Source of the DNA: an uncultured Bacilli bacterium
Lineage (GTDB): Bacteria; Bacillota_I; Bacilli_A; RF39; UBA660
Assembly (NCBI GenBank): GCA_944332205.1
Contig: CALVJN010000018.1
Location: 1-32,835, forward strand
Reading direction: 5' to 3'
Length of the DNA: 32,835 nucleotides
Under the pieces are notes generated by a model. That model did no database searches. It saw only the letters and a list, made by a program, of their open reading frames with translations, and was not told where the DNA came from. The translations under genes and the position numbers were made by a program. How positions within the stretch are numbered: position 1 is the first letter of the stretch; every line of letters starts with the position of its first letter. This document shows positions 33 through 23,848 of the stretch, in pieces.

Positions 33-139
33 TCAAACAAACAAAATGGACCTCTTTCGAGGTCCTTCAGGGGGTTTGGTTGAATACACTCTTACATTAT
101 ATGACGGTAAGAGTGTGCATAATGTTTTACCATCATGCA
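33..139 (-). ncRNA. putative small RNA A, downstream of recG
   Basis: A free-standing transcript of about 105 bases is inferred on the minus strand. A promoter (145-173) is followed by three hairpins: 139-116 (9 bp, one G-U), 116-86 (10 bp perfect, 11-base loop) and 65-48 (7 bp GGACCTC/GAGGTCC closed by a GAAA tetraloop). The last one runs into a T-rich tail, ATTTTGTTTGTTTG, as in an intrinsic terminator. The segment between the second and third hairpins (85-66) is unpaired and contains CCAAACCCCCTGAA, a striking C-run in this AT-rich DNA. No ORF is present. It matches no RNA family that I recognise. A processed recG 3' end is the alternative, but the strong promoter argues against it. Confidence 0.6.
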
Positions 140-144
140 TATTA

Positions 145-173
145 ATCATAATATGTTATTTAAAAATTGTCAA
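145..173 (-). promoter_or_regulatory. sigma-A promoter of small RNA A
   Basis: On the minus strand a perfect -35 TTGACA (173-168) is separated by 17 bases from the -10 TATGAT (150-145). The predicted start, near 139, coincides with the base of the first hairpin of RNA A. It lies just past the recG stop codon. Confidence 0.7.
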
Positions 174-197
174 TTGAATTTATTTTTATTTTTTAAA

Positions 198-2192
198 TTA
201 ATCTATTTTTATTGTAGCAATAAGTCTCTTTTTTAATTCTTCTTTATCATAACATTCATTTTTTAAGTAGTCATCAGAATCCATTTTTGCTTGTACTAAT
301 ATCTTATAATCATTTTTCAAATTAGCCATTTTAAAAGTCATATCCCCACTTTGTTTTGTTCCAAATAAATCACCTGATCCTCGTAATTTAAAATCTTCTT
401 CGCTAATAACAAAACCATCAGTTGTATTTTCCATTATTTCTAATCTTTTAGTATCAGAATCACTTATTAATAAACATTTAGATTCTAAAGAATTTCTTCC
501 CACTCTTCCTCTTAATTGATGTAAAGTAGAAAGTCCAAACCTATTAGCATCAAAAATAACCATCATAGTAGCATTAGGAACATCTACTCCTACTTCTATT
601 ACTGTCGTACTTATCAAAATATTTACAATATTTTGTTTAAATTCTTCCATTATTAATTCTTTTTCTTTAGCTTTCATTTTACCATGTACAATGTCAATTT
701 TATACTTATTACCAAAAATCAAATTTATTTTATCACGTAAAGTATATATATTAGTTAAATCCAAATCATCATTTTCTTCTATTAAAGGCGCTATAACATA
801 TACTTGATGACTTTCTTTTAATTCTTCTTTCATTAAATTGTAAACATCATTCATTTCTTTAGTAGTAAATACTTTAGTCTTAACTGGTATTCTTCCTTTA
901 GGCATTTGTTTTATTATCGATACATCCATATCACCATAAATGGTTAAAGCATAAGTTCTAGGAATTGGTGTTGCACTCATATATAAAACATCTGGTTTTA
1001 TACCTTTATTTTTCAAATTAGAGCGTTGATTAACTCCAAATCTATGCTGTTCATCAGTTACTACTAGTCCTAAATTATTATATTCTACATCTTCTTGAAT
1101 AAGTGCATGTGTTCCAATAATTATATTTACTTTTCCTTCTTTTAATTCATTATATATACTTTGCTTTTCTTTCTTTGTAATTGACCCAGTTAATAATTCA
1201 ATATTTATTTTTTCTTTTCCAAGTAACTGTTTAATATTATTATAATGCTGAGTTGCTAATATTTCCGTTGGTGCCATCAAAGCACTTTGATAACCGCAAA
1301 GATAATTATAATACATTGCTAAAATAGCAACAATTGTTTTTCCACTACCAACATCACCTTGTAAAAGACGATTCATTCTTCTTTCACTATTTAAATCACT
1401 TATAATTTCTTCTAAAGCTTTTAATTGATCTTCTGTTAACTCAAAAGGTAATTTTTTTATAAATGTATCTATTTTCTTTTCTGTATGTCTTTTAATACCA
1501 ACATTATCTTTATTATTTTCTGCACGTAAATAATTTATTTTAAACATAAATTCAAATAATTCTTCATATTTAAGTCTTATACTAGCTTCTTTAAGTTTAT
1601 CGTAATTAGGAGGATTATGGACAATATTTAAAGCTGTCTTTTTATTTAAAAAATTATATTTTTCAATTAAATGTTTAGGAATACTATCTACAATTTCATT
1701 TCCATAACTAACCAAAGCATTATTTATAGCACTGGAAATAACTTTTTGAGTAAGTCCACTGGTAGTATGATATACAGATTCAATTCTCTCTTGATTTGTT
1801 AAACTTCCAAATTTTATATCTGAAGCATTTACTATATTTTTATTTGGATCATATTTACCAATAACAATTATTTTTTCTCCTATTGGTAAACTTTGTTTTA
1901 AAAATGCTCTTCCGAAAATAGATACACCAACAATACCATTAATAGTTGATAATCGAAAGTTTAATTTATTGGTTCCTCCTCTAAATCTAATTACTAATGG
2001 AATACTTTCTACTTTTCCGTCTATTACTATTTTTTGCTCTAAATCTGTAACTGTTTTTAAATCTGTTCTTTTTAAAACATCATATCGAAAAGGATAATGT
2101 GTAACTAAATCATCTATTGTAAATATACCTATTTTATTTAATAAAGGCTCTGTTTTAGGGCCAATTCCTTTTACTTTAGATAACTTATCCAT
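198..2192 (-). CDS. recG: ATP-dependent DNA helicase RecG
   Basis: RecG is the branch-migration helicase that remodels stalled forks and Holliday junctions. The 664 residues show the N-terminal wedge/OB part (about 1-230) with the opening KGIGPKTEPLLNKIGI. The superfamily 2 helicase core follows: Walker A GDVGSGKT (279-286), DEQH box (380-383), MSATPIPRT (about 406) and LHQLRGRVGRN in the second RecA-like lobe. Length is close to the usual 670-690. The start is an ATG preceded by AGAGGAAG. Its promoter lies only a few bases upstream (TGG-TATAAT, 2213-2221), so the leader is very short. In Bacillus recG sits near fatty acid genes; here it stands alone between two putative small RNAs. Confidence 0.97.
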   Translation of the reverse strand: MDKLSKVKGIGPKTEPLLNKIGIFTIDDLVTHYPFRYDVLKRTDLKTVTDLEQKIVIDGKVESIPLVIRFRGGTNKLNFRLSTINGIVGVSIFGRAFLKQSLPIGEKIIVIGKYDPNKNIVNASDIKFGSLTNQERIESVYHTTSGLTQKVISSAINNALVSYGNEIVDSIPKHLIEKYNFLNKKTALNIVHNPPNYDKLKEASIRLKYEELFEFMFKINYLRAENNKDNVGIKRHTEKKIDTFIKKLPFELTEDQLKALEEIISDLNSERRMNRLLQGDVGSGKTIVAILAMYYNYLCGYQSALMAPTEILATQHYNNIKQLLGKEKINIELLTGSITKKEKQSIYNELKEGKVNIIIGTHALIQEDVEYNNLGLVVTDEQHRFGVNQRSNLKNKGIKPDVLYMSATPIPRTYALTIYGDMDVSIIKQMPKGRIPVKTKVFTTKEMNDVYNLMKEELKESHQVYVIAPLIEENDDLDLTNIYTLRDKINLIFGNKYKIDIVHGKMKAKEKELIMEEFKQNIVNILISTTVIEVGVDVPNATMMVIFDANRFGLSTLHQLRGRVGRNSLESKCLLISDSDTKRLEIMENTTDGFVISEEDFKLRGSGDLFGTKQSGDMTFKMANLKNDYKILVQAKMDSDDYLKNECYDKEELKKRLIATIKID

Positions 2193-2212
2193 ACTACCAC
2201 TTCCTCTTGTGT

Positions 2213-2221
2213 ATTATACCA
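2213..2221 (-). promoter_or_regulatory. extended -10 promoter of recG
   Basis: On the minus strand TGGTATAAT forms an extended -10 element (TGn-TATAAT) about 20 bases before the recG ATG. I see no good -35 element. Transcription would begin around 2206, leaving a leader of roughly a dozen bases. Confidence 0.6.
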
Positions 2222-2289
2222 TAAAAGTTAAAAATTAAAAAGCAAAAACAAGTTAACTTTAAAATAATATAAATTTAATTATATTCTTC

Positions 2290-2318
2290 TTGACAAATCT
2301 TTTTCTTTCGATTATTAT
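2290..2318 (+). promoter_or_regulatory. sigma-A promoter of small RNA B
   Basis: On the plus strand a perfect -35 TTGACA (2290-2295) and a -10 TATTAT (2313-2318) are 17 bases apart. The direction is divergent from recG, and no protein gene follows on this strand. It fires towards the hairpins of RNA B. Confidence 0.7.
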
Positions 2319-2323
2319 AGAAA

Positions 2324-2428
2324 TCACCAATTCGGAAAATGGCGAATTGGTCGCTAGTATCACACTAGCCAACCCCTTTTTATTCTTTTGTGAAGTACCT
2401 TCTTCAGGGGGAGGTACTTCTTTTTTTT
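2324..2428 (+). ncRNA. putative small RNA B, between recG and the PFOR gene
   Basis: A transcript of about 105 bases is inferred on the plus strand, opposite to both neighbouring genes. After the promoter come hairpin 1 (2326-2334/2343-2351, 9 bp perfect), hairpin 2 (2353-2358/2364-2369, 6 bp), an unpaired CCAACCCCTTTTTA (from 2369), and a terminator hairpin (2392-2400/2412-2420, GAAGTACCT/AGGTACTTC) followed by eight Ts. The terminator loop is TCTTCAGGGGG (2401-2411). The loop Gs could fold back on the CCCC at 2373-2376 as a pseudoknot, or pair in trans with RNA A. There is no ORF. It does not match an RNA family I know. Confidence 0.65.
2392..2428 (+). terminator. terminator of small RNA B
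   Basis: A 9-bp perfect stem (GAAGTACCT/AGGTACTTC) with an 11-base G-rich loop is followed by TTTTTTTT. This is a strong intrinsic terminator on the plus strand only. Confidence 0.8.
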
Positions 2429-2485: not shown

Positions 2486-5400
2486 TTAATTATTATTCTT
2501 ATTAGTTAAACTTTCATAATATTTGTATCTTTCTTCAGCATTTTTCTGATTTTGCTCATATAAATCATCTTTTTTATCAGGATTTACTTTTGCTAAAGAA
2601 GAATATCTTGTTTCTCCATCTAAGAATTCACTATATTTAGAAAAGTCAGCTTTACTATCTAAAGAAAATTCTTTTGTTTCTGGATTATATCTAAATATTG
2701 GGAAATATCCTGAATCTGTAGCTTTCTTTTCTTCTTGAATACTATTAGTCATTCCAAGTTTTATTCCTTGAGCAATACAAGGTGAATAAGCAATTATTAG
2801 TGAAGGGCCATTATAATTTTTAGCTTCTGTGAATGCTTTAATTGTTTGCATCATATTTGCCCCTAATGATACTGTTGCAACATAAACATGGGGATATGAT
2901 AAAGCAATTTTAGCAAGATCTTTTTTTGCTACAGTTTTACCGGTAGAAGAAAATTTTGCAACACTGCCAATTTTACTTGACTTTGATGACTGCCCACCTG
3001 TATTAGAATATACTTCAGTATCTAATACTAAAATGTTAATATTTTCTCTTGTCGATAATACATGATCTAAACCATTATATCCAATATCGTAAGCCCAGCC
3101 ATCTCCACCAATTATCCAAAAAGATTTTGTTTTTATAAATGGCTTCAATTCAATTAATTCTTTTATCTTGGATTTTTCAATTACTTCATAAAGTAGACAA
3201 CTTGATTCATAATCACATTTTTTATAATATGAAGCAAATATTTCTTTGTATTCATTTGGTATTTTCTTTAAATTATTATATATTGCATTTTTTATTCTCT
3301 CTTTATGAACTTTATCAGCAAGAGCCATTCCAAAGCCAAATTCTGCATTGTCTTCGAATAGAGAATTAGCCCATGGAACACTATATGAAGTACTAGGTAT
3401 ACTTCCGCCATAAATAGATGAACATCCAGTTGCATTAGCAATAACTAATTCACTACCGAATAATTGAGTTAACAATTTTAAATATGGAGTTTCCCCACAT
3501 CCAGCACATGCGCCAGAAAATTCAAACTTTGGATAAGCAAATTGACTTCCCTTTATGGTATTTAAACTCATTACTTTCTTTTCTTTTATTTTTTCAAAAA
3601 GATAATTGTTTTTTTCAATATTCTCTTCACTTTTTACTTCCATTGTAGGTTTCATTATTAACGCTTTTTTGTTATTTTTTCCAGGGCACACATTACTACA
3701 TAAACCGCACCCTGTACAATTATCCATGTTTACACCAATAACAAATTTTAAATTTTTATCTTTAATTAATGAATCTTTTAAATCTTTTTTCAATGATTCA
3801 GGAGCTTTTTTTTCTTCTTTGTCATCCACTAAAAAAGGCCTTATAACTCCATGTGGACATACTAAAGAACATTGATTACACATTATGCAATTTTCTTTGT
3901 TATAGCAAGGAAGAAATTCTGTAATATCTTTCTTTTCCTTTTTTGAATATCCTCCTTCAAAAGTTCCATCAACATATTGTTCTAGTTTACTTATTGGTAT
4001 AGAATTACCTTTTCTTTCATTGATTAATTCAAAAACACTTTTATTATTCTTAATTATTCTCTCATTCTTAATTATTATATTTTCTATTTCAACATTTTCT
4101 AATGTTTCTAATGCTCGATCTATTGCTTTTATATTTTTTTCAATAATTTCTTTACCTTTATTAGTAAGTAATGTCTCTAAAGATTTTTTTATTTCATTGA
4201 TTGCAAAATTAAAATCTATAAGTTTACCAATTTTAAATATTATAGTAGCCATTATAGTATTTATCTTATTATTTAAACCTTCTTCTATCGCTATTTTATT
4301 AGCATTAATTATATAAAATCTTATATGTCTTTTTTTCAATATTTCTTTTTCATTATTATCCATGTATTCTAATATTTGTTCTTTTGTCTTAGAAGTGTTT
4401 AAAATAAAAATTCCATTTTCTACTATGTTATCTAACATATTAAATTTCTTTAAATAAGTATCTTTGGTACATACTATTATCGTTGGATTTTCAACATAAT
4501 AAGTTGATCTTATTTTATTATTACCTAATCTAATATGGCATTTTGTTACTCCTCCAGACTTTTTAGAATCATATTCAAAATATCCTTGAGTAAAAGCTTT
4601 TGTATTATTGCCAACTATTTTTAAAATATCTTTTGATACACTTACCATACCATCAGAACCAAAACCATATATTAATATCTCATAATTTGGATTTTTATAA
4701 TCTAATTTTACTGGTTTTAAACTCAAATTTGTTACATCATCATCAATACCAATTGTAAACCCATTAAAGTTATCTTTCGAATCTAAAAATTCAAAAACAC
4801 TATTTATATGATCTGGCGTTGTATTTTTACTTGATAGTCCATAGCGTCCACCAATTACTTTAATTTTCCTATTACTTTCTTTAATAACATCCGATACATC
4901 TAAATATAAAGGTTCTTTTGATCCTGGCTCTTTAGTTCTATCTAATACTGCGATACTTTTAACGCTTTTAGGGAGTACATTGAAAAAATATTTACTACTA
5001 AAAGGTCTATATAAATGGACTTCAATAAGTCCTACTTTTTTATTATTTTTATTTAGTATATCTATAGTTTCTTTTATGGTTTCGCAAACTGATCCCATTG
5101 CAACAATAACTTTAGTAGCTGATTTATCCCCATAATAATTAAATGGCTTATAATCATTGCCAGTTATTTCATTTATTTTTTGCATATAATTATCTACTAT
5201 ATCAGGTAGTGCATTATAATATTTATTTCTTGCTTCAGTTATTTGAAAATATATGTCATCATTTTCATTAGTTCCCCTTGTTACATTGTTTATACTAATG
5301 GCTCTTTTTCTAAAATCTATTAATGATTTTTTATCTATTAGTTGTTTTACTTTATTTATATCTATTAGTTCAATTTTTTGAAGTTCATGGCTTGTTCTAA

Positions 5401-5911
5401 ATCCATCAAAAAAGTTTAAAAAAGGAATTCTTCCTTTTAAAGCTGATAAATATGATACACTAGTTAAATCCATTACCTGCTGAACAGACGATAATGCAAG
5501 CATAGCAAAGCCAGTTTGTCTTGTTGCATAGATATCTTGATGATCACCTAGTATTGATAGTGCATGAGTAGCAATACTTCTTGCTGCTACATTTATTACA
5601 CAAGGAAGCATTTCCCCTGCTATTTTATACATATTGGGAATCATTAATAATAATCCTTGAGAAGCAGTATAAGTAGTTGCAAGTATTCCATTTTGTAATG
5701 CTCCATGAACTATTCCAATTGCTCCAGCTTCACTTTCCATTTGAACCACTTTTACGGGATAGCCAAAAAAGTTTTCTTTTTTTTCATTTGCCCATTTATC
5801 TATATATTCTGCCATTGGTGAGGCTGGTGTTATTGGATATATTCCAGCAAGTTCCGAAAAATTGTAGGATACATAACTACAAGCTTCATTCCCATCCATA
5901 ATTTTATACAT
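2486..5911 (-). CDS. nifJ: pyruvate:ferredoxin (flavodoxin) oxidoreductase
   Basis: This cytoplasmic homodimeric enzyme oxidises pyruvate with CoA to acetyl-CoA and CO2 and passes electrons to ferredoxin or flavodoxin; it is oxygen-sensitive and typical of anaerobes. All family domains are present in one 1141-residue chain: the pyruvate-binding N-terminus with YPITPASPMAE (25-35), two 4Fe-4S motifs in the ferredoxin insert (C675-x2-C-x2-C-x3-C685 and C732-x2-C-x2-C-x3-C742), cysteines 802, 805 and 830 of the third cluster, and the thiamine-diphosphate site GGDGWAYDIGYNGLDH (935-950) with YSNTGGQSSKSS after it. Length is slightly under the usual 1170. It is monocistronic, with terminators on both sides. 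The Shine-Dalgarno (AAAGAGAG) is modest. The symbol nifJ is the customary family name and does not imply nitrogen fixation. Confidence 0.96.
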   Translation of the reverse strand: MYKIMDGNEACSYVSYNFSELAGIYPITPASPMAEYIDKWANEKKENFFGYPVKVVQMESEAGAIGIVHGALQNGILATTYTASQGLLLMIPNMYKIAGEMLPCVINVAARSIATHALSILGDHQDIYATRQTGFAMLALSSVQQVMDLTSVSYLSALKGRIPFLNFFDGFRTSHELQKIELIDINKVKQLIDKKSLIDFRKRAISINNVTRGTNENDDIYFQITEARNKYYNALPDIVDNYMQKINEITGNDYKPFNYYGDKSATKVIVAMGSVCETIKETIDILNKNNKKVGLIEVHLYRPFSSKYFFNVLPKSVKSIAVLDRTKEPGSKEPLYLDVSDVIKESNRKIKVIGGRYGLSSKNTTPDHINSVFEFLDSKDNFNGFTIGIDDDVTNLSLKPVKLDYKNPNYEILIYGFGSDGMVSVSKDILKIVGNNTKAFTQGYFEYDSKKSGGVTKCHIRLGNNKIRSTYYVENPTIIVCTKDTYLKKFNMLDNIVENGIFILNTSKTKEQILEYMDNNEKEILKKRHIRFYIINANKIAIEEGLNNKINTIMATIIFKIGKLIDFNFAINEIKKSLETLLTNKGKEIIEKNIKAIDRALETLENVEIENIIIKNERIIKNNKSVFELINERKGNSIPISKLEQYVDGTFEGGYSKKEKKDITEFLPCYNKENCIMCNQCSLVCPHGVIRPFLVDDKEEKKAPESLKKDLKDSLIKDKNLKFVIGVNMDNCTGCGLCSNVCPGKNNKKALIMKPTMEVKSEENIEKNNYLFEKIKEKKVMSLNTIKGSQFAYPKFEFSGACAGCGETPYLKLLTQLFGSELVIANATGCSSIYGGSIPSTSYSVPWANSLFEDNAEFGFGMALADKVHKERIKNAIYNNLKKIPNEYKEIFASYYKKCDYESSCLLYEVIEKSKIKELIELKPFIKTKSFWIIGGDGWAYDIGYNGLDHVLSTRENINILVLDTEVYSNTGGQSSKSSKIGSVAKFSSTGKTVAKKDLAKIALSYPHVYVATVSLGANMMQTIKAFTEAKNYNGPSLIIAYSPCIAQGIKLGMTNSIQEEKKATDSGYFPIFRYNPETKEFSLDSKADFSKYSEFLDGETRYSSLAKVNPDKKDDLYEQNQKNAEERYKYYESLTNKNNN

Positions 5912-23497: not shown

Positions 23498-23848
23498 AAT
23501 ACTTTATAAGCCATGTTCTGTACCTATTGCTAGGTGGCAAACATTTATCTACTAATTTTCATTAGTCCTTAACTCTGTTTTATTCCTTCGTTAAAGCTCC
23601 TCTACCAATATTTGAGTTTCTCACTCGTGGGGTTTATCACGTTCCACTTCCATTGTTTCCAATTTCTTCGTCACTATGACACTTTATAATTACTTTAGCC
23701 ATATCATTGGACTTAGGCTATTTCATCGCCGTTAGCAATATGCTACCTAGAGTTATTTTTTTCTCTAGCACGAACACTACAAACATCACAGTTTGTGTGA
23801 GCATGGACTTTCCTCTATATACTAAAATATAGCGTTTGCCAAAATATT
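23498..23848 (-). ncRNA. rnpB: RNase P RNA, type B
   Basis: This is the catalytic RNA that trims the 5' ends of tRNA precursors. Read on the minus strand it shows the conserved GAGGAAAGTCCATGCTCAC near the 5' end and GTAGTGTTCGTGCTAGAG. Further on come the universal GTGGAACGTGATAAACCCC-type segment and the 3' part ACAGAACATGGCTTAT. The ends are set by helix P1: AATATTTT (23848-23841) pairs with AAAGTATT (23505-23498). The layout follows the Bacillus-type (B) RNA, about 350 bases long. The 5' end falls directly on the gpsB stop codon. No good promoter is seen before it, so it may be cut from a gpsB transcript. Neighbourhood of gpsB is as in Bacillus. Confidence 0.95.

Follow-up and report, generated by a model that had tools for sequence, protein, structure and literature searches.

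The DNA-repair gene recG of an uncultured Bacilli bacterium is flanked by two small RNA genes, RNA A and RNA B, which are two new sRNA families absent from Rfam. Comparison with relatives supports both as genuine sRNA genes that are kept throughout a family comprising more than 140 genera. The window analysed here, meaning the whole stretch of 32,835 nucleotides, corresponds to contig C18 of a draft genome of 1.25 Mb. Other carriers of both RNAs are metagenome-assembled genomes of uncultured Bacilli/Mycoplasmata type from gut and rumen (e.g. Candidatus Pelethosoma). Between the two RNA genes lies recG (198–2192, minus strand; Pfam RecG_wedge and RecG_dom3_C), and the next gene after RNA B encodes a pyruvate:ferredoxin oxidoreductase (2486–5911). 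The window also holds an RNase P RNA of bacterial class B (23502–23847, minus strand).

RNA A is a C-rich sRNA located downstream of recG on the minus strand (33–139). Its promoter (145–173) consists of TTGACA at 173–168 and TATGAT at 150–145 with a 17-nt spacer and reached 11/12 in a consensus scan; relatives have TTGAC(A/T) and TAT-AT boxes ahead of RNA A as well. Predicted hairpins 1 (117–138) and 2 (86–116) are followed by an invariant motif, AACCCCCUGAAG (65–76), which holds the heptamer complementary to the RNA B loop as well as the putative attachment-site core, and then by a terminator hairpin (GGACCTCGAAAGAGGTCC, 48–65) with a T-rich tail, which is exchangeable between genomes. RNA B, a dual C-rich/G-rich sRNA divergent from recG, is located on the plus strand (2324–2428). 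Its promoter (2290–2318; TTGACA at 2290–2295, 17-nt spacer, TATTAT at 2313–2318) likewise scored 11/12, and the two promoters are the top-scoring ones of the region. Hairpin 1 (CCAATTCG...CGAATTGG, 2326–2351) precedes an invariant module of hairpin 2 (GCTAGTATCACACTAGC) and CAACCCCTTTTTATTCTTTT (2353–2389). The predicted terminator hairpin (2392–2420) has a stem that differs among relatives and displays the loop heptamer CAGGGGG (2405–2411), the complement of CCCCCUG in RNA A. The coordinates, the −35 and −10 boxes, the 17-base spacers and the sequences of both RNAs given in the original prediction were confirmed to the base. Its architecture of two 5' hairpins and a terminator hairpin per RNA was also borne out by fold prediction, with energies better than those of 200 out of 200 dinucleotide shuffles (z = −7.95 for RNA A and −5.03 for RNA B).

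With BLAST, RNA B matched 24 of 39 relatives, which is every genome of the same family that was searched, and RNA A matched 17 of the 39, most of the same-family genomes. Neither RNA gave a match in the 15 genomes from other families of the class. The covariance search of relatives that had been proposed along with the original prediction extended this picture: model R2 detected RNA B in 172 of 193 family genomes and 139 of 148 genera, and model R1 detected RNA A in 121 of 193 genomes and 98 of 148 genera. A broader RNA A model recovers RNA A in many of the genomes previously missed. In relatives the two RNAs usually flank recG as they do in the window; in several genomes RNA A is located away from recG. 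No Rfam family fits either RNA.

The 5' hairpins of RNA A carry both-sided compensatory changes at all 17 pairs (8/8 in hairpin 1 and 9/9 modelled pairs in hairpin 2). Double-change cells numbered 196, whereas shuffled controls gave 40 and slid controls no more than 35; the counts are biased upward by an alignment fitted to the structure. Judged by these compensatory changes, the structure of RNA A is under selection. In RNA B, hairpin 1 shows both-sided changes at five of nine pairs. Hairpin 2 and the CAACCCCUUUUUAUUCUUUU core that follows it, a module of approximately 37–38 nt, hardly vary across the family, so the sequence itself is constrained there. In two loci (L192 and L274) RNA B genes are tandemly duplicated with a promoter for each copy, and one copy in L192 is without the CAGGGGG loop. 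In a further locus (L130, at about position 3100 on the minus strand) a separate hairpin with the loop AACCAAAAACCCCCTG adjoins RNA B.

The original prediction centred on an exact 10-base complement between the RNA A linker (CCCCCTGAAG, 74–65, minus strand) and the RNA B terminator loop (CTTCAGGGGG, 2402–2411). The complement is present, and the window duplex of linker and loop has a predicted energy of −25.1 kcal/mol. To call it unlikely by chance was too strong for a single genome: among 3000 pairs of dinucleotide-shuffled sequences, 45 had at least 10 perfectly complementary bases, since this type of shuffling leaves runs of C and of G intact. The match in one genome is weak evidence, and the case therefore rests on conservation. 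The two segments had further been described as unpaired. Part of the RNA B loop is closed by U.G pairs in the predicted fold, and the bases preceding the C-run of RNA A pair with the 3' tail, so that neither is fully open.

Across the family the match keeps its position nearly everywhere, but just 7 of its 10 base pairs are conserved. CAGGGG is found in the terminator loop of 150 of 169 unique RNA B sequences on a stem that varies freely. Among 159 loops with (C/U)AGGG the first base is C in 154, the sixth is G in 157 and the last is G in 154. On the other side, CCCCCUG is kept in every RNA A copy listed, even where the linker shrinks, in searches that favour copies carrying this motif. Both motifs hold their places, in the RNA A linker and in the RNA B loop, almost everywhere while both terminator stems vary, and the conserved stretches of loop and linker are co-extensive 7-nt complements (CAGGGGG and CCCCCUG). 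CAGGGGG occurs just 14 times in the 1.25-Mb genome of the window, once antisense to RNA A and once in the RNA B loop. Coincidence or artefact, in the sense that neither locus encodes an RNA or that the motifs have no functional relation, could draw on the 1.5% of shuffled pairs with 10-nt complementarity. Family-wide conservation and compensatory changes speak against it, it is already contradicted for the RNAs themselves, and we consider it scarcely probable.

The conserved complementarity gives no evidence of a dedicated, co-evolving contact. Pairing beyond the heptamer was unrelated to the partner (150 observed, 147.3 after shuffling, with 634 of 2000 shuffles as high); the extra pairs seen in the window are not co-conserved. 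On a FastTree phylogeny of recG the loop is absent in 9 of 133 RNA B sequences, which requires six changes, at least five of them forced by well supported branches; the loop was lost about 5–6 times independently. Among the loop-less genomes in which RNA A could be read, CCCCCUG is retained in all (L112, L127, L135, L147, L155, L162, L164, L181 and L235). The RNA A motif is kept without the RNA B loop, and therefore the RNA A seed appears to have a role independent of that loop. Three genomes have the loop UAGGGGG and a fourth has CUUAGGGAU; RNA A is still CCCCCUG, and we searched the RNA A of the UAGGGGG genomes for a compensatory change and found none. Conversely, the loop is present in three genomes in which no RNA A was found (G143, G062 and G146), in assemblies that are 95–96% complete and with an RNA gene that is prone to fall in contig gaps. 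The loop-less genomes were also searched for a third RNA carrying CAGGGGG in its terminator loop, and no convincing candidate emerged. Both RNAs therefore persist in relatives without covariation of loop and linker, an outcome that the original prediction itself had named as refuting it.

These observations leave room for a different origin of the match, in which the motifs are kept for separate reasons: the RNA B loop would pair with RNA B's own core in an AGGGG/CCCCU pseudoknot and gate it, CCCCCUG of RNA A would bind mRNAs, and the complementarity between the RNAs would be a by-product. A pseudoknot between a G-rich and a C-rich part has been described for RsaOG. The core–loop duplex of RNA B has a predicted energy of −11.8 kcal/mol, the RNAalifold consensus includes this pairing, and in one genome (L144) the core has changed to CCCCA together with a change of the loop to GGGGU, as fits self-pairing. 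The independent variation of the RNA B loop and RNA A also agrees with separate reasons. Self-pairing, however, gives no reason for the conservation of C at the first and G at the last loop position, and the core is invariant even where the loop is lost. The co-extensive heptamers favour pairing between RNA A and RNA B over self-pairing of RNA B, since pairing with RNA A would explain all seven loop positions and self-pairing with CCCCU five. Overall we regard separate reasons as possible though rather unlikely.

Sponge RNAs are recognised by complementarity to the seed of another sRNA, and RNA B has this, over 7 bp across the family and, in the window, over 10 bp together with flanking bases. 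Co-conservation of the complementarity with the partner, a second mark of a sponge, was not found, given some 5–6 losses of the loop with the seed kept and no compensation. The suggestion that one RNA acts as a sponge or decoy of the other consequently stands in part: a dedicated, co-evolving contact is not supported, but a one-sided sponge, with RNA B binding RNA A where the loop is present, would be compatible with the data. RNA B as a sponge of RNA A is a plausible hypothesis.

There is precedent for such an arrangement. RsaI and RosA are G-rich sRNAs of this phylum that bind C-rich sRNAs (PMC8216469). RsaI is reported to bind mRNAs via a C-rich region and the C-rich sRNAs RsaG, RsaD and RsaE via a G-rich region (PMC8216469, PMC9266662). 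Like RsaI/RsaOG of Staphylococcus (RF01775), RNA B is a stand-alone RNA with two 5' hairpins and unpaired C-rich and G-rich regions, here the conserved CAACCCC (2370–2376) and the terminator loop CAGGGGG (2405–2411); it differs in sequence, lineage and neighbourhood. Repression by CcpA and binding of Shine-Dalgarno sequences also characterise RsaI. Membership of RNA B in the RsaOG family was rejected: RF01775 exceeded its gathering cut-off in none of 11 family genomes and was not among the 15 Rfam matches to RNA B at E-values up to 10. RosA of Bacillus subtilis is a sponge of RoxS and FsrA, and its G-rich stretch complements a C-rich sRNA seed (PMC8216469). RNA B shares this feature, but in RosA the G-rich regions are several and a C-rich target region is lacking, whereas RNA B combines one G-rich loop with an invariant C-rich module. 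RNA A resembles RoxS/RsaE, FsrA and CsfG in displaying a short single-stranded C-rich seed; it differs from them in having one seed, a different structure and no Rfam match, and in that its gene serves as a putative integration site.

Taking these likenesses together, we tentatively propose an RsaI-like logic with a trans-acting, C-rich RNA A and a dual RNA B able to titrate it, to which we give not quite an even chance; in this proposal it is inferred that both RNAs are transcribed and pair, which of them controls the other and what they target. C-rich-region sRNAs of Bacillota bind G-rich ribosome-binding sites. Both loci would encode trans-acting sRNAs, and RNA A would display its C-rich seed AACCCCCUG in the linker that separates hairpin 2 from the terminator. 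The invariant module of RNA B would bind one or more targets of its own. Its G-rich terminator loop would form 7 bp with the RNA A seed and titrate RNA A, as proposed for RsaI. The loop contact would be a lineage-dependent add-on, with the loop dispensable and the RNA A seed and the RNA B module indispensable.

RNA A also appears to be a target for integration. Copies of RNA A lie less than 100 nt from a sequence end in 19 of 146 cases, and the window itself begins just behind RNA A. Among the 105 loci that have 600 nt or more of downstream sequence, 27 carry a convergent tyrosine integrase behind the RNA A terminator (PF00589 in two examples), and a viral contig (L415) carries RNA A followed by an integrase. 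Some RNA A terminators are identical between genomes. The genome of the window has two copies of CCCCCTGA with a terminator hairpin but without the upstream part of RNA A (G000:C27:390 and 8715), both on a contig that encodes a matching integrase as well, and similar displaced copies with unrelated upstream sequence are located downstream of RNA A in two further loci (L352:1812 and L366:2987). An adjacent tyrosine integrase and a displaced gene fragment, the two marks of an attachment site, are both present. The loci concerned are 33–76 (minus strand) in the window, G000:C27:390 and 8715, L029, L106, L134, L145, L158 and L415. The simplest reading of these sequences is that RNA A is an integration hotspot used in a tRNA-like manner, with CCCCCTGAAG as the core and the element bringing a new terminator. 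Genes for tRNA and tmRNA are known integration targets of mobile elements (Islander, PMC4383910). RNA A shares with such sites the adjoining tyrosine integrase, the RNA 3' end supplied by the element and the displaced fragment marking the other end; it differs in being an sRNA gene whose core precedes the terminator, within the linker, with the result that integration exchanges the terminator.

The linker is also the putative attachment core, and this would place a second constraint on the RNA A motif beside the RNA B loop. The linker might even be invariant mainly as a core that integrating elements must restore, which would make the match to the RNA B loop incidental. The integrases at 27 of 105 loci, the displaced copies and the shared terminators could be understood in this way. 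Most RNA A loci, however, keep the motif with no integrase nearby, and in the tRNA and tmRNA precedents integrases adopt an already conserved sequence and do not create it; we consider this explanation very unlikely.

Part of RNA B in turn recurs in phages. Exact copies of the hairpin-2-plus-core module of about 38 nt, in the same sense as the phage genes, precede terminase and portal genes in two viral contigs that are related to each other and in a prophage-like region (G015); the copies lie at about 4315–4350 in L295, about 8113–8150 in L296 and about 1005–1045 in L382. In the viral contigs L295 and L296 the module comes immediately after a tRNA-like sequence with a CCA end, for which ARAGORN makes no call. 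Among cellular sequences, a near-perfect complement of the RNA B core is located between ppdK and an HTH-like gene in two genera (L383, G001:C25; L384, G013:C20), and this intergenic complement downstream of ppdK is a possible target or sponge of RNA B. In the three rsmH genes readable over the stretch concerned, complementarity to the core extends over 15 contiguous nt in the window genome and amounts to 22/22 in G016 and 16/22 in G063, which makes rsmH a lead as a candidate RNA B target; the complement (L174, L385, L405) lies within the coding sequence at KRIKRG(W/Y) codons. For RNA A, the Shine-Dalgarno sequence of dnaA in the window genome is CAGGGGG and complementary to the seed (L315, G000:C19:9596, minus strand), and the same holds in G001. 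As a family-wide target dnaA was rejected, the CAGGGGG Shine-Dalgarno being absent from the 28 other dnaA leaders read. No extended complement of the RNA A linker was found elsewhere in the window genome within 3 mismatches of 18.

In a wider view, the pair flanking recG might be a place where mobile DNA meets the RNA regulation of the host: the RNA A seed would double as an integrase core, each integration would swap the terminator, and the phage module would mimic RNA B and thereby hijack or titrate its partners. We offer this as a speculation that is clearly unlikely at present. A limited literature search found no sRNA work on this uncultured gut Bacilli lineage. The lineage is very large, its members have reduced genomes, and RNA A and RNA B would represent two sRNA families in it that are abundant and so far undescribed. 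A dual C-rich/G-rich sRNA in these organisms would suggest that sRNA-on-sRNA control in the style of RsaI and RosA is recurrent in Bacillota, and the integration site in an sRNA gene together with the phage-borne RNA B module would offer testable handles on the function of both RNAs.
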